NCBI GenBank assembly: GCA_017792345.1
Contig: CP051228.1
Location: 1,922,001 to 1,986,000, forward strand
DNA: 64,000 nt
Origin: Mesoflavibacter sp.
Lineage (GTDB): Bacteria; Pseudomonadota; Alphaproteobacteria; UBA8366; Aestuariispiraceae
Direction of reading: 5' to 3'
The notes under the pieces were generated by a model. That model saw only the letters and a program-made list of their open reading frames with translations. It did not search any database and was not told the DNA's origin. Both the position numbers and the translations under genes were made by a program. Shown here in pieces: positions 5,794 to 49,498 of the stretch (positions within the stretch are counted from its first letter, which is position 1; each line of letters begins with the position of its first letter).

Positions 5794-6360
5794 CTACTCG
5801 TAGGATTTCTGGGCGATCCGCCGGTAACTCAGCCCCTGGCATTCATAGACGTCGCGGCTGGGATAGATCGACTTGTAAGCGGTCGGTCCGGTCAGTCGCA
5901 CGGCATCCATCGGGATCGACGGGAACTCGGCGCGCAACACACGGATCAGCACAGGATCGCGGCCGGAGATGCGCGTCTTGTCGTTCAGACGGGAAGGGTT
6001 TTCCGCCGCGAAGACCTGAAGCCGGTCATGCAGATAGGGCGCCTTTTCGCACAGCGCATCGGCTGTGGTTCGGTTCGGCAGGTCGATGACCGCCACAAGG
6101 CCGTCATTGATCCGGCCGGCGACGTTCATCAGCGGCCCGGCGACCAGCCGGACCGGCTCGCCGTCATCGGGTTGGCGCTTGTCCTCGGTGTCGGAAATCT
6201 CCTGCACCGCGTCCAGCACCTCCTCGCCGAACAACGGCATCAGGATGATCGGAAGCGCGCCGAAAAAGGCGATGATTGTATAGAGGATGAGGCGGTCGAT
6301 ACCCATTGGGTGCACTGCTTTCGGCGTCACGCGTTGTTTCCAGTCGTCGCTTTTCGGCAA
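5794..6360 (-). CDS. Hypothetical single-pass membrane protein
   Basis: No family is recognised. The 188-residue reading has one hydrophobic helix (about residues 23-43) followed by a soluble region of about 140 residues with two Cys and the block PVRLVAGPLMNVAGRIN. The topology suggests a membrane-anchored extracytoplasmic domain. The start is uncertain: the long form uses TTG at 6360, while an ATG at 6306 directly before the helix would give 170 residues. It lies upstream of mmcB on the same strand, 69 bp away. The existence of the gene is supported by sustained coding character; its function is unknown. Confidence 0.6.
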   Translation of the reverse strand: MPKSDDWKQRVTPKAVHPMGIDRLILYTIIAFFGALPIILMPLFGEEVLDAVQEISDTEDKRQPDDGEPVRLVAGPLMNVAGRINDGLVAVIDLPNRTTADALCEKAPYLHDRLQVFAAENPSRLNDKTRISGRDPVLIRVLRAEFPSIPMDAVRLTGPTAYKSIYPSRDVYECQGLSYRRIAQKSYE

Positions 6361-6710
6361 CCCCGCTACCCCGTTTTCTCTCCGGGGCCGGAGGCTTTGC
6401 GTCCCGCCGTTACCGACGGTTTGCCTTGATCGAAAGGCGCGACACCCGCGTCTTCCTACCGATGGGATATAGATAGCCTATCCCGCAGCGCAACACAGTG
6501 ACGAGGATCACAGGTAGAATTTTTTGTGACGCCTTGGAACTGGTGGCGGCGGTACCGATACCCGCAGAATGGGGCCGGCGAAGCGCATATGCGATTTCAC
6601 CCACGGAAGTGGGACGCAGGCCGTCGAAAGTCGGGAGAAAATGGCGCACCCCAACGGACGAAGTCCGAACTTACTATGGTCCGGGAAGCCGTGTGCGAAT
6701 GAAGTGAGAA
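6361..6710. other. 350-bp intergenic stretch without convincing gene
   Basis: It holds a short inverted repeat (GGGATA/TATCCC around 6464-6484) and several short open frames of low quality on both strands. No ribosome-binding site, family motif or terminator supports a gene. It would contain the promoter of the 5794-6360 gene and the 3' flank of the tRNA. Confidence 0.4.
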
Positions 6711-6787
6711 TGGCGCGCCCCGGAGGATTCGAACCCCCAACCTCCTGATCCGTAGTCAGGTGCTCTATCCAGTTGAGCTAGGGGCGC
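6711..6787 (-). tRNA. tRNA-Arg (anticodon ACG)
   Basis: A complete 77-nt cloverleaf is visible on the minus strand. The acceptor stem GCGCCCC pairs with GGGGCGC, followed by discriminator G and an encoded CCA end. The D arm carries AGCTC/GAGC, the anticodon stem is CCTGA/TCAGG with loop CTACGGA, and the T arm holds GGTTCGAATCC. The anticodon is ACG, which after deamination to ICG reads CGU, CGC and CGA. No flanking integrase or duplicated 3' end suggests use as an attachment site. Confidence 0.97.
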
Positions 6788-37904: not shown

Positions 37905-38501
37905 ATGACCAACGCCGAAACCAGCAGATTGCGCATCGCCGTAATCGAGAAAGATCGCGACCGGGCCATGATGATCGTGGACGGGCTGCGCGAGGCCGGA
38001 GAGTATGAAGTTTCGGTCATTGGCGAGGAATCCGGTTTCGCCCGGCGCATCGAAGACCTGAAACCGGATGTCGTCCTGATCGACTTGGAGAATCCCAGCC
38101 GCGACGTGCTGGAAGGGTTGGCGCTGGCCTCCACACCGCTGGACCGGCCGGTGGCCATATTCGTCGACCGCAGCGATACACAACTGACCCGCGCGGCGAT
38201 CGAAGCCGGGGTCAGTGCCTATATCGTCGACGGATTGCGCAAGGAACGTATCAAGCCCGTGCTGGACGCGGCGATCGCGCGATTCGGCATGATCAGCCGG
38301 ATGCGCAAGGAATTGGATGCGACCAAGGCGGCCCTGGCGGAACGCAAGACCATCGATCGCGCCAAGGGCATCCTGATGCGTGCCCGCGGCCTGTCGGAGG
38401 AGGAGGCCTATACCCTGCTGCGCCGGACGGCAATGGATCAGGGCCGCAAGATCGGCGATGTGGCGAGTGCCATCGTCACCGCGGCGGAGTTGCTGCGATG
38501 A
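37905..38501 (+). CDS. nasT: NasT, ANTAR-domain antitermination regulator
   Basis: The 198-residue protein has a receiver-like domain (about 9-125; RIAVIEKDRDRAMMIVDGL, DVVLIDLENPSRD) and a C-terminal ANTAR RNA-binding domain (about 135-195; ERKTIDRAKGILMRARGLSE, AYTLLRRTAMDQGRKIGDVA). In NasST systems, free NasT binds paired hairpins in the nas leader RNA to prevent termination, and NasS holds it when nitrate is absent. It overlaps nasS by ATGA, and the cognate leader is recognisable at 39761-39836. Confidence 0.95.
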   Translation: MTNAETSRLRIAVIEKDRDRAMMIVDGLREAGEYEVSVIGEESGFARRIEDLKPDVVLIDLENPSRDVLEGLALASTPLDRPVAIFVDRSDTQLTRAAIEAGVSAYIVDGLRKERIKPVLDAAIARFGMISRMRKELDATKAALAERKTIDRAKGILMRARGLSEEEAYTLLRRTAMDQGRKIGDVASAIVTAAELLR

Positions 38502-39679
38502 GCTTGCGGCGGCTGGAATGCGGCTTCATCCCGTTGATCGACAGCGCGCCGCTGGTCATCGCGCGCGAACTGGGCTTCGCGCGGGAGGAGGGGCTGGACC
38601 TGCAGCTCCAGGCACAGCCGTCCTGGTCGGCGGTGCGCGACAAGCTGGCGCTCGGCCGGCTGGACGCGGCGCATCTGCTGGCCCCGGTGCCGATCGCGAT
38701 GTCGATGGGGCTGGGCGGCATGGCGCTGGCGCTTGATGCGCTGTCCGTCCTGTCGATGAACGGCAATGTCGTCGGCGTCTCCAGCAGACTGGCGCGCCGC
38801 ATGGCCGATGCGGGCGCGCCCGGTGATTTCCGCTCGGCGGCCGAAATCGGCCGCGCCCTGATCCGGGTCTGCGACAAGCCGCTGACCGTCGGGGTGCCGT
38901 TCCCATTCTCGATGCATGCGGAACTGCTGTATTACTGGCTCGGCGCGCTGGGTCTGAAAGCGCCACAGGATCTGATCGTCCGGACCGTGCCGCCGCCCCA
39001 GATGGCGGAGGCCATCGAAGCGGGCACGATCGAGGCGTTCTGCGTCGGGGAGCCCTGGGGATCCGTTGCGGTCGCGCGGGGCTGCGCCGAACTGATTCTT
39101 CCCGGTGCCGCGATCTGGAACTTTGCGCCTGAAAAAGTGCTGGCGGTACGCAAGGGCTGGGCGGAGCGCGAGATCGAGGCGACGTCCGGTCTGATGCGGG
39201 CGGTATGGCGCGCGGCGCGCTGGCTGGGCGATTCCGCCAATGTCATGACGGCGGCAGAGATCATGTCCGGCGCCGACTACCTCAACCTTTCCTCTGAAAT
39301 GGTCGAACGCACGCTACAGGGGCGGCTGCTCGTCAACGCGTCGGGGGAAGAAAGGGTGACACCCCGCTTCATCGAATTCTTCGACGGTGCGGCAACTTTC
39401 CCCTGGCGCAGTCAGGCGGTCTGGATCGCCACCCGGCTGGCGCGTCGGAACGGGCTTGATCTGGAAGAGGCGGCGGCGGTGGCGCGGGGTTGTTTCCGCC
39501 CGGATCTGTACCGGACCTGCCTGGATTCTGCAGGCGCCGACATGCCCGGCGCGTCGGAAAAACTGGAAGGCGCTTTGGACATGCGCTCCCCCGTCGCATC
39601 GTCGACCGGCGAGATGTATCTGGGGCCGGATCTGTTCTTTGACGGGCGCGTTTTCGACCCGATCGTCATTTCGGTCTGA
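38498..39679 (+). CDS. nasS: NasS, cytoplasmic nitrate sensor
   Basis: The 393-residue protein has the NrtA/CmpA-type nitrate-binding fold but no signal peptide, the hallmark of NasS. Family segments include LECGFIPLIDSAPLVIA, FPFSMHAELLYYWL and VPPPQMAEAIEAGTIEAFCV with GEPW. It binds nitrate or nitrite in the cytoplasm and releases NasT. It overlaps nasT by 4 bp, which fits the stoichiometric NasT-NasS complex. It is closely related in layout to NrtA, encoded just downstream. Confidence 0.94.
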   Translation: MSLRRLECGFIPLIDSAPLVIARELGFAREEGLDLQLQAQPSWSAVRDKLALGRLDAAHLLAPVPIAMSMGLGGMALALDALSVLSMNGNVVGVSSRLARRMADAGAPGDFRSAAEIGRALIRVCDKPLTVGVPFPFSMHAELLYYWLGALGLKAPQDLIVRTVPPPQMAEAIEAGTIEAFCVGEPWGSVAVARGCAELILPGAAIWNFAPEKVLAVRKGWAEREIEATSGLMRAVWRAARWLGDSANVMTAAEIMSGADYLNLSSEMVERTLQGRLLVNASGEERVTPRFIEFFDGAATFPWRSQAVWIATRLARRNGLDLEEAAAVARGCFRPDLYRTCLDSAGADMPGASEKLEGALDMRSPVASSTGEMYLGPDLFFDGRVFDPIVISV

Positions 39680-39760
39680 GGCGGTTTCGAATTTTCCAGT
39701 TGATTTCGCACTGCAACATGATACGGTGATCGAACGGTTCGGGCAAAGGTGTCCGGGTCC

Positions 39761-39796
39761 AATCTCTACGCTGAGAATGATTGAGCAAAGCTGCTC
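39761..39796 (+). promoter_or_regulatory. ANTAR-type antiterminator hairpins in the nas leader
   Basis: Two short hairpins stand 6 nt apart. The first is TCTC (39763-39766)/GAGA (39773-39776) with hexaloop TACGCT. The second is GAGC (39783-39786)/GCTC (39793-39796) with hexaloop AAAGCT, matching the A1/G4 loop rule known for ANTAR targets. The first loop keeps G4 but has U at position 1. The 3' arm of the second hairpin is also used by the downstream terminator stem, so the two structures exclude each other. Confidence 0.8.
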
Positions 39797-39836
39797 GTCC
39801 ACCGCGACAGGTGTCGCGGAAGACGTGCGGCTTTTT
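39790..39836 (+). terminator. Regulated intrinsic terminator in the nas leader
   Basis: GCTGCTCGTC (39790-39799) pairs with GACGTGCGGC (39822-39831), and CCGCGACA (39802-39809) pairs with TGTCGCGG (39812-39819), with small internal mismatches. TTTTT follows (39832-39836). It lies 54 bp before nrtA. Its 5' arm overlaps the antiterminator hairpin, so NasT binding upstream should prevent it from forming. Confidence 0.88.
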
Positions 39837-39889
39837 CATTTTCATTGGCTCGGCGCAGGGAAGCGCGGGCCCGAAACCAGGAGAGCGTT

Positions 39890-41254
39890 ATGAAGCTCCG
39901 TCCCCTGATCACCGGTATCGTTCTGTCCATCGCAGCGACCACCGCCCACGCGGAAATGCTCGATGTCGAAAAGGACGAACTGACATTCGGATTCATCAAA
40001 CTTACAGATATGGCGCCCCTCGCGGTGGCTTACGAGAACGGCTATTTCGAGGATGAAGGCCTGTTCGTCACGCTGGAAGCCCAGGCGAACTGGAAGGTCC
40101 TGCTGGACGGCGTCATCGACGGCAAGCTGGACGGCGCCCACATGCTGGCCGGTCAGCCATTGGCCGCGACCATCGGTTTCGGAACCGAAGCCCATATCAT
40201 CACGCCCTTTTCCATGGATCTGAACGGCAACGGCATCACCGTGTCGAACGAGATCTGGGCGCTGATGAAGGAACACATTCCGCATGACGCGGACGGAAAG
40301 CCGGTCCACCCGATTTCGGCCACCGCGCTGAAGCCGGTCGTCGAGAAATACCGTGCGGAAGGCAAGCCGTTCAACATGGGCATGGTCTTCCCGGTCTCGA
40401 CCCATAATTACGAGCTGCGCTACTGGCTGGCCGCCGGCGGGTTGAAGCCCGGCTATTACAGCCCCGAAAACGTCACCGGCCAGATCGAAGCGGATGTTCT
40501 GTTGAGCGTTACGCCGCCGCCGCAAATGCCGGCGACATTGGAGGCCGGCACCATCTATGGCTATTGCGTCGGCGAGCCCTGGAACCAGCAGGCGGTCTTC
40601 AAGGGGATCGGGGTTCCGGTCATCACGGATTTCGAAATCTGGAAGAACAATCCGGAAAAGGTCTTCGGCATCACCGCCGAGTTCGCCGAGAAATACCCGA
40701 ACACGACCCTGGCCCTGACCAAGGCGCTGATCCGTGCGGCCCAATGGCTGGACGAGAACGACAACGCCAACCGGCCGGCGGCGGTCGAGATCCTGTCGCG
40801 TCCGGAATATGTCGGCGCCGATTACGAAGTGATCGCCAATTCCATGACCGGCACCTTCGAATACGAAAAGGGCGACAAGCGCGAGGTCCCGGACTTCAAC
40901 GTCTTCTTCCGCTATCACGCGACCTATCCGTACTATTCCGACGCCGTCTGGTACCTGACCCAGATGCGCCGCTGGGGCCAGATCGCCGAGGCCAAGCCGG
41001 ATGGCTGGTATGACGAAGTCGCCCGCAAGGTCTATCGCCCGGACATCTATCTGGAGGCCGCGCGCCTGCTGGTCGAGGAAGGCCAGGTCCAGGAGGCGGA
41101 CTTCCCCTGGGACAGCGACGGTTATCGCGAACCGCAGGACGAATTCATCGACGGCATCGCCTTCGATGGCCGCCAGCCCAATGCCTATCTGGAAAGCTTC
41201 CCGATCGGCCTGAAAGGCGGCCAGACCGTCAAGGGAGGAAGCGTCGGCGGCTAA
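39890..41254 (+). CDS. nrtA: Nitrate ABC transporter substrate-binding protein
   Basis: The 454-residue protein has a Sec signal (about 1-21, ending AHA-EM) and the NrtA/CmpA/NasF fold: [59 protein letters not shown] and GEPWNQ. It captures nitrate (and possibly nitrite) in the periplasm. ATG at 39890 follows AGGAGAG and comes right after the regulated leader, so it is the first structural gene of the nas operon. A strong intercistronic hairpin separates it from the permease gene. Confidence 0.95.
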
Positions 41255-41345: not shown

Positions 41346-42431
41346 ATGTCCGCCATCGCCGACGAAGATTTCGCCGACGCAGCCGGGAAACAGGCCCGCC
41401 GGGAAAAGCTGTTTGCCCGCATCAACAAGATCGATACCTATCTGAAAGTCCTCGGTCTCGGCTGGGGCACGCCGATCCTGCGTGCCGCCGCCGGGGACAA
41501 TCCGAAAGCCCAAGGTCGCGAAGTGCTGCGCCAGCTGGGTGTGCCGCTGGCCGCGATTCTGGCCTTCCTGATGCTCTGGGCGCATCTTGCCCCGCAGGTT
41601 CAGACATCGCTGGGCGCCGTGCCCGGACCGGCGCAGGTCTGGGAGCAGATGCTCTCCCTCCACGAGGATGCGACCCGCAAGGCCGAAAAGGAATCCGCAT
41701 TCTACGAACGCCAGGAAGAGCGCAACGAGAAGCTGATCGCCGCCGGCAAGGAAGACCGCGTCAAATGGCGCGAGTTCACCGGGGCGCCCAGCTATTACGA
41801 TCAGATCTGGACGTCGATCCAGACGGTGTTTTTCGGCTTCCTGCTGGCGACCGTGGTCGCGGTGCCGATCGGCATCATCTGCGGCCTGTCCCCGACGGCC
41901 AGCGCGGCGTTCAATCCGCTGATCCAGATCTTCAAACCGGTCTCGCCGCTGGCCTGGCTGCCGATCGTCACCATGGTCGTCTCGGCGGTCTATGTGACCA
42001 ATGACGGGCTGTTCTCGAAATCCTTTCTGAACTCCGCCATCACGGTGACGTTGTGTTCCCTGTGGCCGACGTTGATCAACACGACCCATGGCGTTGCCAG
42101 CATCGACAAGGATCTGGTGAACGTCTCCCGGGTTCTGAAGATGTCGACCTGGTCCAAGATCACGCGTCTGGTCCTGCCGTCGGCCCAACCGCTGATCTTT
42201 ACCGGGCTGCGCCTCAGCCTGGGCGTGGGCTGGATGGTGCTGATCGCCGCCGAAATGCTGGCCCAGAACCCGGGGCTCGGGAAGTTCGTCTGGGACGAAT
42301 TCCAGAACGGTTCGTCCCAGAGCCTGGCCAAGATCATGGTCGCGGTCTTCACCATCGGGGTCATCGGCTTCCTGTTGGACCGGATGATGTACGCGATCCA
42401 GACCCTTCTGACCCACACCAACAATCGGTGA
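41346..42431 (+). CDS. nrtB: Nitrate ABC transporter permease
   Basis: The 361-residue protein has an acidic-basic cytoplasmic N-terminus, a first helix near residue 70, a charged periplasmic insert (about 110-150) and a BPD-type permease domain (YYDQIWTSIQTVFFGFLLAT, then the EAA-like loop VLKMSTWSKITRLVLPSAQP). It is the channel of the nitrate importer with NrtA and the fused ATPase. Residues 100-150 are longer and more charged than in small SsuC-type permeases, as is typical of NrtB. GAGGAAG precedes the ATG. Confidence 0.94.
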   Translation: MSAIADEDFADAAGKQARREKLFARINKIDTYLKVLGLGWGTPILRAAAGDNPKAQGREVLRQLGVPLAAILAFLMLWAHLAPQVQTSLGAVPGPAQVWEQMLSLHEDATRKAEKESAFYERQEERNEKLIAAGKEDRVKWREFTGAPSYYDQIWTSIQTVFFGFLLATVVAVPIGIICGLSPTASAAFNPLIQIFKPVSPLAWLPIVTMVVSAVYVTNDGLFSKSFLNSAITVTLCSLWPTLINTTHGVASIDKDLVNVSRVLKMSTWSKITRLVLPSAQPLIFTGLRLSLGVGWMVLIAAEMLAQNPGLGKFVWDEFQNGSSQSLAKIMVAVFTIGVIGFLLDRMMYAIQTLLTHTNNR

Positions 42432-42436
42432 TCGTC

Positions 42437-44095
42437 ATGGCTATTCTGGAACTGAAAAAGTGCAGCAAGAGCTTCGGCGAGGGTGCCGCGCGCGAGGACG
42501 TGCTGACGGATATCGACCTGTCGGTGCGTGAGGGAGAATTCGTCGCGATCCTCGGCTTTTCCGGTACGGGGAAGTCGACGCTGATCAACCTGATGAGCGG
42601 TCTGGTCCTGCCGGACAGCGGCGAGGCCCTGTTCAAGGGGGACCGGATCGAAGGGCCGGGGCCGGAGCGGGGATTGGTTTTCCAGTCCTATTCGCTGATG
42701 CCCTGGCTGACGGTCCGCGGCAATATCATGCTGGCCGTGGATGCGGTTCATAAAGGACTGTCCAGGGCGGACCGCCAGGAGATCGCGGCGAAATACATTG
42801 CCATGGTCGGTCTGAACCACGCGGCAGACCGGCGGCCGGCGGAATTGTCCGGCGGCATGCGCCAGCGCGTCGCCGTGGCCCGTGCCCTGGCGATGAACCC
42901 GGAAGTGCTGCTGCTGGACGAGCCATTGTCGGCGCTGGACGCGCTGACCCGGGCGAACCTGCAGGACGAGATCGAACGGATCTGGGAGGCCGACCGCAAG
43001 ACGGTGGTCCTGATCACCAACGATGTCGACGAGGCGCTGCTGCTGGCCGACCGGATCGTGACGCTGACCCCCGATGGCACCATCGGCGATCAGTTCACGG
43101 TCTCGCTGCCCCGACCGCGCGACCGGGCGGCGATGAACCACAATCCGGCCTTCAAGGCGCTGCGCGCGAAGGTCACCCAATACCTGATGGCGGTCGGAAT
43201 CGCTTCGAAGATCGACGGCACGCGTCTGCTGCCCGATGTCGTCCCGATCCACGGCGTCCCGAAGGCGGTGGCCGATGCGGCCCATTCCTTCAACGACGAG
43301 CGCTATCTGCAGTTCTCGCAGCTTCATAAGGTCTATCCGACGCCGAAAGGTCCCCTGACGGTGGTCGAGGATTTCGAACTGACCATGAAGAAGGGCGAGT
43401 TCGTATCCCTGATCGGGCATTCGGGCTGCGGCAAGTCGACGGTCCTGACCATGACAGCCGGCCTGAACGATATCTCCAAGGGCGCCATCATTCTGGACGG
43501 AACCCATGTGACCGAGGCCGATCCGGAACGGGCCGTCGTCTTTCAGTCGCCCAGCCTGTTCCCCTGGCTGACCGCCCGGGAGAATTGCGCGGTCGGCGTC
43601 GACCGGGTCTATCCGAAAGCGTCGCAGGAGGAACGCCAGGACGTCGTCGAATACTATCTGGAACGGGTCGGCCTGGCCGATGCGATGGACAAGCCGGCGG
43701 CCGAACTGTCGAACGGGATGAAACAGCGTGTCGGGATCGCCCGGGCCTTCGCCCTGTCGCCGAAACTGCTGCTGCTGGACGAACCCTTCGGGATGCTGGA
43801 CAGCCTGACCCGATGGGAGTTGCAGGAAGTCCTGATGGAGGTCTGGTCCCGCACGCAGGTGACGGCGGTCTGTGTCACCCATGATGTCGACGAGGCGATC
43901 CTGCTGGCCGACCGCGTGGTGATGATGACCAACGGGCCGCGCGCCCGGATCGGCAAGATCATGGATGTGACCCTGCCGCGACCGCGCAGCCGCAAGCATC
44001 TGCTGGAACACCCCGACTACTACGCCTACCGCGAAGAGCTCCTGACTTTTTTGGAGGAGTATGAGCACGGCGCCGAGAAGAAGGAGGCGGCGTGA
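42437..44095 (+). CDS. nrtC: Nitrate ABC transporter ATPase, NrtC-NrtD-like tandem fusion
   Basis: The 552-residue protein carries two full ABC ATPase domains. The first (about 1-240) has FSGTGKST, LSGGMRQRVAVARA and LLLDEPLSALD. The second (about 285-550) has HSGCGKST, LSNGMKQRVGIARA and LLLDEPFGMLD. Both include the switch His/Asn region: ITNDVDEALLL in the first and VTHDVDEAILL in the second, so domain one has Asn where His is usual. Known cyanobacterial NrtC fuses an ATPase to a binding domain; here both ATPases are joined. It starts six bases after nrtB and overlaps nirB. Confidence 0.92.
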   Translation: MAILELKKCSKSFGEGAAREDVLTDIDLSVREGEFVAILGFSGTGKSTLINLMSGLVLPDSGEALFKGDRIEGPGPERGLVFQSYSLMPWLTVRGNIMLAVDAVHKGLSRADRQEIAAKYIAMVGLNHAADRRPAELSGGMRQRVAVARALAMNPEVLLLDEPLSALDALTRANLQDEIERIWEADRKTVVLITNDVDEALLLADRIVTLTPDGTIGDQFTVSLPRPRDRAAMNHNPAFKALRAKVTQYLMAVGIASKIDGTRLLPDVVPIHGVPKAVADAAHSFNDERYLQFSQLHKVYPTPKGPLTVVEDFELTMKKGEFVSLIGHSGCGKSTVLTMTAGLNDISKGAIILDGTHVTEADPERAVVFQSPSLFPWLTARENCAVGVDRVYPKASQEERQDVVEYYLERVGLADAMDKPAAELSNGMKQRVGIARAFALSPKLLLLDEPFGMLDSLTRWELQEVLMEVWSRTQVTAVCVTHDVDEAILLADRVVMMTNGPRARIGKIMDVTLPRPRSRKHLLEHPDYYAYREELLTFLEEYEHGAEKKEAA

Positions 44096-46533
44096 TGGCC
44101 GAGAAACTTGTCGTCATCGGCGCCGGGATGGCGTCCGGCCGGATGCTGGAGCATCTCTGCGAGGGCGATCCGGACCGCTATTCGGTGACCCTGTTCGGGG
44201 AGGAGCCGCGCGGCAACTATAACCGGATCATGCTGTCGCCCGTCCTGTCGGGGGAAAAGACCTACGAGGAGATCGTCACCCATGATGCCGACTGGTACGC
44301 GGCAAACCGGGTCGATTGCCGCTTCGGCGAAGCGGTGACCCGGATCGACCGGGACCGGAAGGTGGTCGTCAGCGCGTCCGGCGAAACGCCTTACGACAAG
44401 TTGCTGATCGCGACCGGGTCCAGCCCCTTCGTCATTCCGGTGCCGGGCAGCAAGCTGGACGGGGTCGTGACCTATCGCGATCTGGATGACACCAACGCCA
44501 TGATCGCGGCGGCCGGGTCGGGCCGCAAGGCGGTGGTGATCGGCGGCGGGCTGCTGGGTCTGGAAGCCGCCGCCGGATTGCAGGCGCGCGGCATGGATGT
44601 CACCGTCCTGCACCTGATGGGCCATCTGATGGAACGCCAACTGGACGAAGCCGCCGGATACCTGTTGAAAGCCGAGTTGGAACGGCGCGCCATTCGCGTC
44701 CATGTCCTGGCCAACACCCATGAGATCCAGGGCAAAGACCGGGTCACCGGCGTCCGGCTGGACGACGGCACGGTCTATCCCGCCGATATCGTGGTCATGG
44801 CGGTCGGGATTCGTCCCAATGTCGAACTGGCCAAATCGGCCGGGCTGGCGTGCGGTCGGGGCCTGCATGTCGACGATGCGATGGTTACATCGGACGCCGA
44901 TATCCTGGCGGTCGGCGAATGCGTCGAACATGGCGGTACATGCTATGGCCTCGTCGCGCCGCTCTATGACATGGCGCGGGTCGCGGCGCAGACGCTTCTG
45001 GGCCAGGATGCGGCCTATCGCGGCAGCATCACGTCAACCAAGCTGAAGGTAACTGGGATCGACCTGTTCTCCGGCGGCGACTTTTCCGATGGCGAAGGAC
45101 GGGAGGAGATCGTCTATCGCGATCCCGGCGCGGGTGTCTACAAGCGCCTGGTTCTGGTCCAAAACCGGATCGTCGGGATCGTGCTCTACGGCGATACGGC
45201 CGATGGCGGCTGGTTCTTCGGCCTGTTGAAGGACGGCACCGACATTTCCGACATGCGCGACACGCTGATCTTCGGTCCGGCCTATGCGGGGGGATCGCCG
45301 CTGGACCCTATGGCGGCCGTTGCAGCCTTGCCGGATGATGCGGAAATCTGCGGCTGTAACGGCGTTTGCAAGGGAACCATCGTCCAGGCCATCGGGGCCG
45401 GGGCGACCGATCTGGATGCCGTCCGGACGGTAACCAAGGCCTCCGGGTCCTGCGGGACCTGTACCGGTCTGGTGGAACAGGTGCTGGCCCTCACCCTGGG
45501 GGATGCGTTCCAGGCGCCGGCGGCCCGGCCGGTCTGCGGCTGCACCGATTTGACCCATGAGGAAGTGCGGCGGCTGATCAAGTCGCAGGATCTGAAAACC
45601 ATGCCGGCCGTGATGCAGGCCTGTGGCTGGAAAACGTCCTGCGGCTGCCATATCTGCCGCCCGGCCCTGAACTATTACCTGCTGTCCGATTGGCCGTTGG
45701 AATACCGCGACGATCCGCAAAGCCGTTTCGTCAACGAACGGCATCACGCCAACATTCAGAAGGACGGCACCTTCAGCGTGGTGCCGCGCATGTGGGGCGG
45801 TATCACGACCCCGGACGAACTGCGTGCCATTGCCGATGCGGCCGATAAATACAGCGTGCCGACCGTGAAAGTGACCGGCGGGCAGCGCATCGATCTGCTG
45901 GGCGTGCGCAAGGAGGACCTGCCCGGCATGTGGGCGGATCTGAATGCCGCCGGACTGGTATCGGGTCATGCCTATGCCAAGGGGTTGCGGACGGTGAAGA
46001 CCTGCGTGGGGACCGATCATTGCCGGTTCGGGACGCAGGATTCGACCGGGCTGGGCATCAAGATCGAACGCCGGCTCTGGGGTTCTTGGACGCCGCACAA
46101 GGTCAAGATGGCCGTGTCCGGCTGCCCGCGGAACTGCGCCGAAGCGACCTGCAAGGATGTTGGCGTCATCTGTGTCGACAGCGGCTTCGAGATCGGCGTG
46201 GCCGGCGCGGCGGGCATGGATGTGAAGGCGACCGAACCCCTGGCGAAGGTTGCGACGGAAGAAGAGGCGATGGAACTGATCGTCGCCTTTGTCCAGCTCT
46301 ACCGCGAAAACGCCAAATACCTCGACCGGCCCTACAAATGGGTCGCGAAGGTCGGGATGGATTGGGTGCGCGAACGGGTCGTCGAGGATGCGGAGAACCG
46401 GGCCGACTTGGTGCGGCGCTTCGACCTGTCGCAGTCGGTTTATCAAAAGGACCCCTGGGCGGAACACGCCGCGCCGCGAATGCGCCCATCCTACCGCCCG
46501 CTGGCGGATCTGACACTGGAGGCGGCGGAATGA
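44092..46533 (+). CDS. nirB: Assimilatory nitrite reductase [NAD(P)H], large subunit
   Basis: The 813-residue protein has an FAD/NAD(P)H domain (about 1-400; VIGAGMASGRMLEHL, GNYNRIMLSPVL), two BFD-type [2Fe-2S] regions (from Cys 420 and from Cys 482), and the siroheme/[4Fe-4S] domain with Cys 638, Cys 644, Cys 678 and Cys 682 (CVGTDHC, GCPRNC). It reduces nitrite to ammonium with six electrons. GTG 44092 and ATG 44095 both overlap the ATPase stop. nirD follows with ATGA overlap. Confidence 0.96.
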   Translation: MMAEKLVVIGAGMASGRMLEHLCEGDPDRYSVTLFGEEPRGNYNRIMLSPVLSGEKTYEEIVTHDADWYAANRVDCRFGEAVTRIDRDRKVVVSASGETPYDKLLIATGSSPFVIPVPGSKLDGVVTYRDLDDTNAMIAAAGSGRKAVVIGGGLLGLEAAAGLQARGMDVTVLHLMGHLMERQLDEAAGYLLKAELERRAIRVHVLANTHEIQGKDRVTGVRLDDGTVYPADIVVMAVGIRPNVELAKSAGLACGRGLHVDDAMVTSDADILAVGECVEHGGTCYGLVAPLYDMARVAAQTLLGQDAAYRGSITSTKLKVTGIDLFSGGDFSDGEGREEIVYRDPGAGVYKRLVLVQNRIVGIVLYGDTADGGWFFGLLKDGTDISDMRDTLIFGPAYAGGSPLDPMAAVAALPDDAEICGCNGVCKGTIVQAIGAGATDLDAVRTVTKASGSCGTCTGLVEQVLALTLGDAFQAPAARPVCGCTDLTHEEVRRLIKSQDLKTMPAVMQACGWKTSCGCHICRPALNYYLLSDWPLEYRDDPQSRFVNERHHANIQKDGTFSVVPRMWGGITTPDELRAIADAADKYSVPTVKVTGGQRIDLLGVRKEDLPGMWADLNAAGLVSGHAYAKGLRTVKTCVGTDHCRFGTQDSTGLGIKIERRLWGSWTPHKVKMAVSGCPRNCAEATCKDVGVICVDSGFEIGVAGAAGMDVKATEPLAKVATEEEAMELIVAFVQLYRENAKYLDRPYKWVAKVGMDWVRERVVEDAENRADLVRRFDLSQSVYQKDPWAEHAAPRMRPSYRPLADLTLEAAE

Positions 46534-46871
46534 GCGAATGGATCGATATTGGGGAAATGGATGCAATTCCCCGCCGCGGCGCCCGGGTGGTGAAGACGGC
46601 GGCCGGCTGCGTCGCGATTTTCCGGACCGAGGCGGACGAGGTCTTCGCGCTGGACGATCGCTGTCCGCATAAGGGCGGGCCGCTGAGCGACGGGATCGTG
46701 CACGGCAAATCGGTAACCTGCCCGCTGCACAACTGGGTCTTCGACTTCGACACCGGTCGCTGCACAGGGCCCGATGAAGGCGCGGTGGCGGTGTATCCGG
46801 TCCGGGTCGAGAACGGGCGTATCCTGATCGATGCCGCCCGCCTGCGGGCCCGGATCGGCGAGGCGGCCTGA
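46530..46871 (+). CDS. nirD: Nitrite reductase [NAD(P)H], small subunit (Rieske-type)
   Basis: The 113-residue protein is a Rieske domain with the complete ligand set: Cys 45 and His 47 in DRCPHKGG, and Cys 64 and His 67 in TCPLHNW. Many NirD proteins lack these residues, so this form should bind a [2Fe-2S] cluster. It is the partner of NirB in nitrite reduction. It overlaps nirB by 4 bp, and nasA starts two bases after its stop. Confidence 0.95.
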   Translation: MSEWIDIGEMDAIPRRGARVVKTAAGCVAIFRTEADEVFALDDRCPHKGGPLSDGIVHGKSVTCPLHNWVFDFDTGRCTGPDEGAVAVYPVRVENGRILIDAARLRARIGEAA

Positions 46872-46873
46872 CC

Positions 46874-49498
46874 ATGGCGGTGAAGACCGTTTGCCCATAT
46901 TGCGGCGTCGGCTGCGGTATCCTGGCGGAGATCCGCGACGGTCAGGTCACGGTCAAGGGCGATCCCGACCATCCGGCGAATTTTGGGCGCCTGTGCTCCA
47001 AAGGGGCGGCCCTGGGCGAAACCCTGGACCTGGAAGGCCGGCTGCTGACCCCGATGGTCGACGGCAAATCCGCGACCTGGGAGTCGGCGATCGAAAAAAC
47101 CGCGCGGGCATTTCGCGAGGCCATCGACACGCACGGTCCCGACAGTGTCGCGATCTATGCGTCCGGCCAGATGCTGACCGAAGATTATTATGTCGCCAAC
47201 AAGCTGATGAAGGGGTTCGTCGGCAGCGCCAATATCGACACGAATTCGCGCCTGTGCATGGCGTCCACCGTTGCCGGGCATATCCGGGCCTTCGGGTCCG
47301 ATACGGTGCCCGGCGTCTATGAGGATCTGGAACTGGCGGACCTGGTCGTGCTGGTCGGATCCAACCTCGCCTGGTGTCATCCGGTCCTGTATCAGCGCAT
47401 CGCGGCGGCCAAACAGGCGCGGCCCGGCATGCGGGTGGTCAATATAGACCCGCGCCGGACCGCGACATCCGATCTGGCGGATATCAGCCTGTCCATCGCG
47501 CCCGGCGGGGATCTTGCCCTGTTCGCCGGGCTGCTGGATCATCTGGCACGGACCGGTCGCATCGATGCCGATTACTGCCGCGCCCATGTTTCCGGCCTGA
47601 CGGAAGCCTTGGCGGCGGCATCGGAAATCGACCTGTCCCAAACCGGTCTGACCGCACCGGAATTGCAGGCGTTCTACGACTTGTGGGCGGGGACGGAAAA
47701 GGTCGTGACCGTCTTCAGCCAGGGCGTCAATCAGGCCATCGACGGCACCGACAAGGTCAATGCCATCCTGAACGTCCATCTGGCGACCGGGCGGATCGGC
47801 CGGCCCGGCATGGGACCGTTTTCCGTCACCGGTCAGCCAAACGCGATGGGTGGCCGAGAGGTCGGCGGGCTTGCGACCATGCTGGCCGCCCATCTGGATA
47901 TCGCCAATCCGGAACATCGCGCGGCCTTGCAGAATTTCTGGCAATCCCCTGCCATGGCCTCCACGCCGGGCCTGAAGGCGGTAGACCTGTTCCGGGCCTG
48001 CCGAGAGGGCAAAATCAAGGCGCTTTGGATCATCTCCACCAACCCGGCGGTGACCCTGCCGGAGGCGGATTCGGTTCGCGACGCGATCCGCGCCTGTCCC
48101 TTCGTCGCGGTGTCGGACATTACCGCGGAGACCGATACGGCGCCGCTTGCCGATGTTCTGTTCCCGGCCGCCGGCTGGGGGGAGAAGTCCGGGACCGTCA
48201 CCAATTCGGAACGCCGCATCAGCCGCCAACGGGCTTTCCTGCCGGTCCCCGGTGCCGCGCGGCCTGACTGGCGGATCCTATGCGATGTCGCGGCCGCCAT
48301 GGGCTGGGGGAAGGCCTTTGCCTATGACCGGCCGACGGATATCTTTCGCGAATATGCCGCCCTGACCGGCCTGTCCGCCCGCTTCGGACGCGACCTGGAC
48401 CTGACCGGGCTGGTCGAGGCGGATTATGATGCCATCGAGCCCGTGCAATGGCCCCAGCGCGAGGGCGGCGACGGTGGCGGCGGACGGTTCTTTGCCGAAG
48501 GCGGGTTCTTCACGCCCGACCGGCGGGCGCGGATGATCCCCAGTGTCGCGACCCCCTTCGCACGCGCTACAAGCACGGCGTTTCCGCTGCGCCTCAACAC
48601 CGGCCGCGTCCGGGATCAATGGCATACCATGACGCGCAGCGCGAAATCGCCGCGGCTGAACCGGCACACTGCCGAACCCTATGTCGAAATTCATCCCGGC
48701 GACGCGGCCGAGAAGGCCATTGCGCCGGCCGATCTGGTGCAGGTCGACAATCCGTATGGTCGGGTCGTGGCGCGGGCACTGATTTCGGAAAATACCCCGC
48801 GCGGCAGCATCTTCCTGCCGATGCACTGGAATGGCCATTGGGCCAGCGCGGGACGGACGGACGCGTTGGTGCCCGGCGACACGGATCCGCATTCGGGGCA
48901 ACCTGCCCTGAAAGCATCGGTCGCCCGGATCGAAAAGCTGGCGGTCGCCTGGTACGGTTTCGCGGTCTGCCACAGCCGCTTTGATCCGGCCGCCTCCTAT
49001 TGGGCCCGGGCACGGTCCGGCGGCGGCTGGCAGGCGGAACTGGCGGGAACCGAAACGCCGGATGACTGGATCGGTTATGCCCGGGCGCTTTTCGGTCTGC
49101 ACAAGGATGTTTCGGTGCTGAGTGCCATGGACGCGACCCGCGGCACGGCCCGTGTCGCCTTCCATACCGACGGGCGGGTCCAGGCGGCCTTGTTCGCGGC
49201 GCCGGAACCGGTCGCGGTGTCGCGCAGTTTCGTGGCGGATGCCTTGAAGGGCTCGGCCCGGCCCGCCGATGTATTGGCCGGGCGCCCCGGTGCCGGACGG
49301 CCGGATTCCGGCCCGATTGTCTGCAGCTGTTTCGATGTCGGGGTGAACACCATCCTGGCCGCCATCGCCGACCGCGGGCTGGTCGATATCGACGCCATCG
49401 GCGCGGCGTTGGGGGCGGGCACGAATTGCGGGTCCTGCCGTCCCGAACTCTCGGGGCTTCTGATGCGCAGCAGCCCCAGCCGGGTGGCGGCGGAATGA
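46874..49498 (+). CDS. nasA: Assimilatory nitrate reductase catalytic subunit with C-terminal BFD domain
   Basis: The 874-residue molybdoenzyme starts with the [4Fe-4S] motif CPYCGVGC (Cys 7, 10, 14) and LCSKG, followed by bis-MGD-binding oxidoreductase domains (NTNSRLCMAS-like NIDTNSRLCMAS, VNQAIDGTDKVNAILNVHLA, GQPNAMGGREVGG). The molydopterin dinucleotide-binding domain comes next (LNTGRVRDQWHTMTRS). The last 65 residues are a BFD-like [2Fe-2S] domain (CSCFDVG, Cys 817/819; GTNCGSC). It reduces nitrate to nitrite in the cytoplasm. It overlaps the next gene by ATGA. Confidence 0.96.
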   Translation: MAVKTVCPYCGVGCGILAEIRDGQVTVKGDPDHPANFGRLCSKGAALGETLDLEGRLLTPMVDGKSATWESAIEKTARAFREAIDTHGPDSVAIYASGQMLTEDYYVANKLMKGFVGSANIDTNSRLCMASTVAGHIRAFGSDTVPGVYEDLELADLVVLVGSNLAWCHPVLYQRIAAAKQARPGMRVVNIDPRRTATSDLADISLSIAPGGDLALFAGLLDHLARTGRIDADYCRAHVSGLTEALAAASEIDLSQTGLTAPELQAFYDLWAGTEKVVTVFSQGVNQAIDGTDKVNAILNVHLATGRIGRPGMGPFSVTGQPNAMGGREVGGLATMLAAHLDIANPEHRAALQNFWQSPAMASTPGLKAVDLFRACREGKIKALWIISTNPAVTLPEADSVRDAIRACPFVAVSDITAETDTAPLADVLFPAAGWGEKSGTVTNSERRISRQRAFLPVPGAARPDWRILCDVAAAMGWGKAFAYDRPTDIFREYAALTGLSARFGRDLDLTGLVEADYDAIEPVQWPQREGGDGGGGRFFAEGGFFTPDRRARMIPSVATPFARATSTAFPLRLNTGRVRDQWHTMTRSAKSPRLNRHTAEPYVEIHPGDAAEKAIAPADLVQVDNPYGRVVARALISENTPRGSIFLPMHWNGHWASAGRTDALVPGDTDPHSGQPALKASVARIEKLAVAWYGFAVCHSRFDPAASYWARARSGGGWQAELAGTETPDDWIGYARALFGLHKDVSVLSAMDATRGTARVAFHTDGRVQAALFAAPEPVAVSRSFVADALKGSARPADVLAGRPGAGRPDSGPIVCSCFDVGVNTILAAIADRGLVDIDAIGAALGAGTNCGSCRPELSGLLMRSSPSRVAAE

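Follow-up and report, generated by a model that had tools for sequence, protein, structure and literature searches.

The nas locus of this genome leaves a gap of about 210 nt between the end of nasS and an nrtA-like gene at 39890 of the window, i.e., the whole stretch of 64,000 nucleotides that was analysed. This gap raises the question of whether it encodes a NasT-responsive antitermination leader and which hairpins make up the target. The accessible text of earlier studies on ANTAR proteins establishes a target of two hairpins, P1 and P2, with a loop rule and exclusion of a terminator (PMC3369931, PMC8934654, PMC7496416). A C-G pair closing the loop belongs to the SELEX consensus described there for NasR (PMC7496416), and the P1-P2 linker is given in the accessible parts as 5-12 nt in eut (PMC3369931) and 2-25 nt in an actinobacterial survey (PMC8164766). 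For Paracoccus denitrificans, the accessible text of PMC3795266 describes that NasS-NasT dissociates on nitrate and that NasT shifts the nasA leader RNA. We conclude that the NasT-type switch in the nrtA leader of the window is real. As a literature search of titles and abstract openings found no report of a three-hairpin ANTAR target, we regard this leader as a new form of the known ANTAR antitermination leader, with a third, middle hairpin (PM) outside the usual two-hairpin description.

The nas locus and its leader

The open reading frames and family searches gave the order nasT-nasS-leader-nrtA, all on the forward strand. nasT (37905-38501) is a 198-aa open reading frame for an antiterminator protein with a receiver-like and an ANTAR domain, the latter scoring 81.6 bits against PF03861 (cut-off 27.3) at G000:C1:1960322-1960477, corresponding to window positions 38322-38477. 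Residues Y169, R173 and M177 of NasT were invariant in five of five NasT rows and match, by spacing alone, Tyr164, Arg168 and Met172 of EutV as given in the accessible part of PMC8934654. nasS (38498-39679) is predicted to encode the NrtA-like nitrate/nitrite sensor that holds NasT. Its product starts with MSLRRLECGFIPLI, matches the SsuA family weakly and under the family cut-off, and is 36% identical to the neighbouring NrtA over 362 aa. By eye it has no obvious signal peptide, so that, as in a NasS-NasT system, an ANTAR protein gene adjoins one for an NrtA-like protein devoid of an export signal. An earlier note on this DNA had placed nasT just upstream of the leader; nasT does lie upstream, but nasS sits between the two. 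The nrtA-like gene (39890-41254) encodes a nitrate-binding protein with a signal-like N-terminus by eye and is probably the first gene under control of the leader. It is followed by a block of genes on the same strand (41346-49498), comprising an nrtB-like open reading frame (41346-42431), a fused two-ATPase nrtCD-like one ending at 44095, nirB (44092-46533), a small Rieske-type nirD-like open reading frame and a nasC-like nitrate reductase gene (46874-49498). The nrtCD-like and nirD-like names derive from the translations; six of the eight nas-cluster proteins were submitted to the family search, and among the downstream proteins searched NirB alone passed the curated cut-off.

The nas cluster is patchy among the relatives (G001-G013): close NasS homologues were confined to G003 among the five other genomes of the genus and to G011 among the remaining eight of the family, and G006 has a homologue at 38% identity. 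Elsewhere in the window, a c-di-GMP-I-GGC riboswitch aptamer (RF03167, 67.4 bits, gathering threshold 59) lies on the reverse strand at 6352-6434, adjoining a 188-aa open reading frame (5794-6360, reverse strand) and near tRNA-Arg(acg) at 6711-6787.

Three hairpins precede nrtA on the forward strand. P1 (39741-39754; GGGC AAAGGT GTCC) has a strict A1/G4 hexaloop and a stem that extends outward. PM (39763-39776; TCTC TACGCT GAGA) keeps G4 and has T at loop position 1. P2 (39783-39796; GAGC AAAGCT GCTC) again has the strict A1/G4 hexaloop, and its 3' part is used by an intrinsic terminator (39790-39836) with an inner hairpin at about 39802-39819 and a U-tract (TTTTT) at 39832-39836. In this terminator the arm GCTGCTCGTC (39790-39799) opposes GACGTGCGGC (39822-39831) with one U.U mismatch and one G-U pair, so that P2 and the terminator have 39790-39796 in common. 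A C-G pair closes all three loops (C39744-G39751 in P1, C39766-G39773 in PM and C39786-G39793 in P2). The hexaloop of P2, the position of its 3' arm inside the 10-nt terminator arm and the end of the T-run at 39836 had all been claimed by the earlier note and were borne out. That note had also taken 39763-39776 for a P1 departing from the loop rule, which might define a variant target. The loop does depart at position 1, but the hairpin is the middle and not the first one; a scan for A1/G4 hexaloops turned up the strict hairpin upstream of it, and the interval of the note (39761-39836) cuts off the real P1.

The dual-hexaloop targets of eutP, nasF and amiE have the same A1/G4 loops, C-G closure and P2 exclusive with a terminator, and the linked ANTAR protein gene of the window completes the likeness. 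Those targets, in contrast, have two hairpins; in the window a further hairpin is interposed, and 28 nt separate the 4-bp core of P1 from that of P2. This linker lies beyond both published ranges, which are reached only stepwise (8 nt from P1 to PM, 6 nt from PM to P2), so that with PM in place each neighbouring pair stands at a canonical short linker. Since PM is at a canonical distance from P2, it is probably a true part of the target, to which it would add a hairpin instead of being an aberrant P1.

The leader (39741-39845) folded at -46.1 kcal/mol (z -4.0), and none of 200 shuffles was equally good. When transcripts starting at 39731 or 39736 were folded length by length, P1 appeared first, then PM and then P2, and at ends from 39798 to 39822 each of the three had a pair probability of at least 0.99. 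The probability of P2 was 0.85-0.89 at end 39828; from end 39832 it was 0, and the terminator was then the structure of minimum energy. This loss of P2 upon completion of the terminator gives good support to the mutual exclusivity that had been proposed, and it implies that something bound to P2 earlier must hold the switch open. PM fell to 0.74-0.81 at end 39790 and again at 39832-39836. A fold of 39680-39800, which includes upstream sequence and excludes the terminator, had no excess stability (z 0.31; 121 of 200 shuffles equally good). P1 and P2 were formed in it, and PM was displaced by pairing of 39724-39728 with 39769-39773. PM is therefore reliable only if transcription begins downstream of about 39728, and its role depends on the transcript start.

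A possible, uncertain leader promoter (TTGATT, 16 nt, TACGGT) lies at 39700-39727. It scores 7 of 12, second to another pair 52 nt upstream with 8 of 12, and a generic promoter scan gave no promoter on the leader strand of the window. In 44 of 64 leaders from related loci (see below), the best -35/-10 pair, with a TTGA box, begins 43-49 nt ahead of the P1 loop; the mean score over the leaders is 7.25 vs 6.75 in shuffles. The leader may be driven by a separate promoter located between nasS and P1. Rfam searches at gathering and relaxed thresholds returned nothing over the leader at the curated threshold; the two matches below it, with E 1.7 and 2.5, were to one microRNA and one sRNA family.

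Layout of the leader in nasTS loci

The three-hairpin layout recurs. In the sister genome G011, whose NasS is 68% identical, the order is the same, with GGGC-AAAGGC-GTCC, the long hairpin TTCTCTC-CATGCG-GAGAGAA at the PM position (drawn with a tetraloop by RNAfold) and GAGC-AAAGCC-GCTC. We further collected 86 nasTS loci, 80 of them named nasT loci and six from relatives. The named loci are by title mostly Rhodobacteraceae and allied genera, which we take to be Rhodobacterales. A long-spaced P1 and P2 could be assigned automatically in 68 of the 86. The remaining 18 were left out. L029 and L039 lie at the end of a contig, the searched pattern was absent from L007, L008, L058, L063 and L066, a strict P1 is lacking in L086 and L104, and in nine leaders of the Paracoccus type or similar the third hairpin does not fit the pattern. 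After removal of L004, which is almost a copy of the window, L006, which belongs to another lineage, and L045, whose assignment was wrong, 65 leaders were analysed, and distance and promoter counts refer to 64, as L056 was omitted as well.

Only leaders with both a P1 and a P2, chosen according to the loop rule, entered the set, and PM was chosen by its stem alone; the conserved loop letters of P1 and P2 are thus there by construction and are not evidence. Among letters not imposed, position 2 was A in P1 of 64/65 and in P2 of 53/65 leaders. The P1-P2 loop distance was 41-55 nt (median 48), and the PM centre lay at a median of 28 nt past P1 and 20 nt before P2. The P1-P2 linker folded with a mean z of -1.06, with 31 of 65 below -1.

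In an alignment of 32 rows, hand-picked from the 68 assigned loci, 90.6% of the cells were paired, and 36 cells in the three helices together had two-sided changes vs 11.8 in shuffles. As the sequences are related, this and the other counts overstate independence. Two-sided changes were present in P1 (three of five pairs) and in P2. PM was the least well paired helix (80.2% of cells), with a loop length that differs among rows. Further pair types, one of five measures, were no more frequent than in shuffles (17 vs 16.2).

Two side observations were made in these leaders. In 13 of the 64 (e.g., L061, L073 and L094), the stretch past P2 contains CCTCCTC or CTCCTCCC, similar to an anti-Shine-Dalgarno sequence. 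Locus L032 (WNWL01000008.1), from a record labelled Oceanobacillus sp., has a like leader and a nasT 70% identical to the alphaproteobacterial type, and the record is possibly a mislabelled or mixed assembly.

The nasTS-nasA region of P. denitrificans is like the window in gene order, and NasT-dependent expression is known for it. In strain DSM 413 there are, as in the window, three hexaloop hairpins with G4; the third loop is GACGAT (G1), whereas P2 of the window is strict A1/G4, and, unlike in the window, no run of five T occurs within 450 nt after nasS. The accessible text of the publications on this system (PMC5424462, PMC3795266) describes two hairpins, HI and HII, and does not speak of a three-hairpin target. 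HI, a 37-bp element located 137 bp upstream of nasA, is reported there as needed for expression and growth on nitrate (PMC5424462). Placed by coordinates on DSM 413, the published strain being PD1222, HI spans PM together with the greater part of P2, and HII lies just before the terminator. HI is the best existing hint that PM matters, yet it also includes P2.

Loop distances across the phylum

NasT was detected at E<=1e-20 in 135 of 397 genomes from the phylum. The survey set of 182 loci comprised 100 of these 135, chosen by hand and mostly omitting family f31 (taken as the named-loci group), as well as the 80 named loci and two more near the window. Two hexaloops with an overlapping terminator were found on the nasT strand in 116 of the 182 and on the opposite strand in two; the nasT strand of 66 loci gave no motif. 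Three of 131 motifs were dropped by eye because they lay in genes or skipped a nearer P1 (L161, L172 and L192, with distances of 48, 56 and 50 nt), and L163 (distance 49) was kept despite a weak linker hairpin. The loop distances of the remaining 128 motifs fell mainly into two classes, with 55 at 17-28 nt, 70 at 40-54 nt and three at 32-37 nt. Short-class leaders (e.g., in families f28 and f66) are like the window in their strict P1, a P2 with G4, an overlapping terminator and the regulator family, but differ by the loop distance of 17-28 nt and a linker of 2-15 nt. Three short calls came from the named loci. By eye, L046 and L094 are three-hairpin leaders whose P1 call had fallen on the middle hairpin; in L104 the middle loop is strict A1/G4 and the first, by eye, relaxed (C1/G4), so that the roles of its hairpins seem swapped.

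A motif was present in 38 genera among the 100 loci, of which 20 had the short class only, 12 the long class only and six were mixed or intermediate; this tally still includes the three doubtful motifs and treats distances of as much as 110 nt as long. L170 (f66, before a nirB-like gene) has a spacing of 34 nt and no clear middle hairpin. A class search gave a hit at E<=0.001 in 20 of 289 genomes; outside the seed, strong hits were confined to G124 and G284, each of which has NasT hits. In the own genome, a search with model R1 yielded a single strong hit; this was the leader of the window, itself a member of the model seed. The next three hits (E 6.4e-4, 0.0098 and 0.047) resemble coding sequence by eye and were set aside.

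A second ANTAR gene of the own genome (L002, G000:C1 around 122615, reverse strand) is AmiR-like by look. Two tandem terminators each follow ANTAR-type hexaloop sequences by eye, and the downstream gene resembles a periplasmic binding protein of the urea/amide type, also by eye. As in the window leader, hexaloop hairpins precede an overlapping terminator there; unlike in the window, the spacing is classical (about 27 nt loop to loop by eye).

The middle hairpin and a model of the switch

The locus likely carries a NasS-NasT antitermination leader for nitrate uptake and assimilation genes with a three-hairpin ANTAR site as its target. In this switch PM would serve either as a third, looser NasT contact or as a keeper of the working distance between P1 and P2.

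A mere spacer is a real, if somewhat doubtful, possibility. PM would then fold up the linker and bring P1 and P2 to a distance that NasT can bridge, its own loop remaining untouched. The lack of A1 in the PM loop of the window fits this explanation, as does the effect of linker length in eut described in the accessible text of PMC3369931 and PMC8934654. Some long-class leaders have non-ANTAR middle loops at the equivalent place as well, namely L142, L143 (GGCATAA), L165 (tetraloop CGAC) and L221 (AATA), the plain loops of the latter three favouring a spacer. The loop letters of PM argue against it: in the 65 leaders, G4 was present in 42 PM loops (12.6 expected from dinucleotide shuffles) and A1 together with G4 in 27 (3.7 expected). 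Strict A1/G4 middle hexaloops occurred in 7 of 52 long linkers (0.9 expected) and, outside the named loci, in 5 of 18, the latter having been 6 of 21 (0.34 expected) before the doubtful motifs, L192 being one of the six, were dropped. These five all belong to f66 and all precede nirB-like genes, with other genes at the f66 loci served by two-hairpin leaders. Strict middle loops were also seen by eye in L158 and L174, and the swapped arrangement of L104, where the middle loop is the strict one, also speaks against a spacer.

It is improbable that the leader is an ordinary two-hairpin target with 39763-39776 as a P1 of variant loop and the upstream hairpin as an incidental structure. The canonical 6-nt linker to P2 and the published HI, which leaves out the upstream hairpin, would agree with such an arrangement. 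Nevertheless, the upstream hairpin has a strict loop, a C-G closing pair and two-sided changes, and a strict hairpin at similar spacing was assignable in the 68 loci described above.

We also consider it quite improbable that PM is a chance hairpin of the linker without a role. Short hairpins are indeed common, as under a lenient stem definition all 65 linkers held a middle hairpin and 57 would be expected to from shuffles, and PM was absent from the window fold once upstream sequence was included. By a stricter score, however, a decent middle hairpin was present in 43 of 52 and 16 of 18 long-class linkers vs 18.2 and 6.0 expected, and the position and loop letters of PM are conserved.

That the terminator, lying between nasS and nrtA, is a plain end of the nasTS operon and the hairpins are unrelated to nrtA control is hardly credible in view of the overlap of hexaloops and terminator on the nasT strand vs the other strand and of the NasT dependence of the P. 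denitrificans leader in the accessible text of PMC5424462 and PMC3795266.

For the NasS-NasT switch with its three-hairpin site, studied relatives suggest that nitrate is sensed by NasS and the RNA bound by NasT. Without nitrate, NasS would hold NasT, and as the 3' arm (39822-39831) emerges, the terminator would open P2 and transcription would stop. With nitrate or nitrite, NasS would let go of NasT, which would bind the strict hexaloops of P1 and P2. Bound NasT would keep P2 folded, so that 39790-39799 is not free for the terminator and the genes from nrtA onward are transcribed.

A more far-reaching proposal, which we put forward tentatively and regard as rather unlikely, is that NasT targets form two classes one hairpin step apart. 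At the three-hairpin sites NasT, oligomeric once released, would be handed from P1 over PM to P2, with PM as a relaxed contact of lower affinity for which G4 is needed and position 1 is free. If so, many ANTAR targets would be overlooked or misnamed in searches confined to hairpin pairs with short linkers.

A published crystal structure revises the older model of how an ANTAR protein reads RNA, and the natural strict, relaxed and plain middle loops offer material on how an ANTAR dimer or oligomer does so. ANTAR regulons are found by the short-linker two-hairpin definition. Should the long class with its three hairpins prove real, the first hairpin is likely to be missed or misplaced in searches of this kind, as happened in the earlier note.
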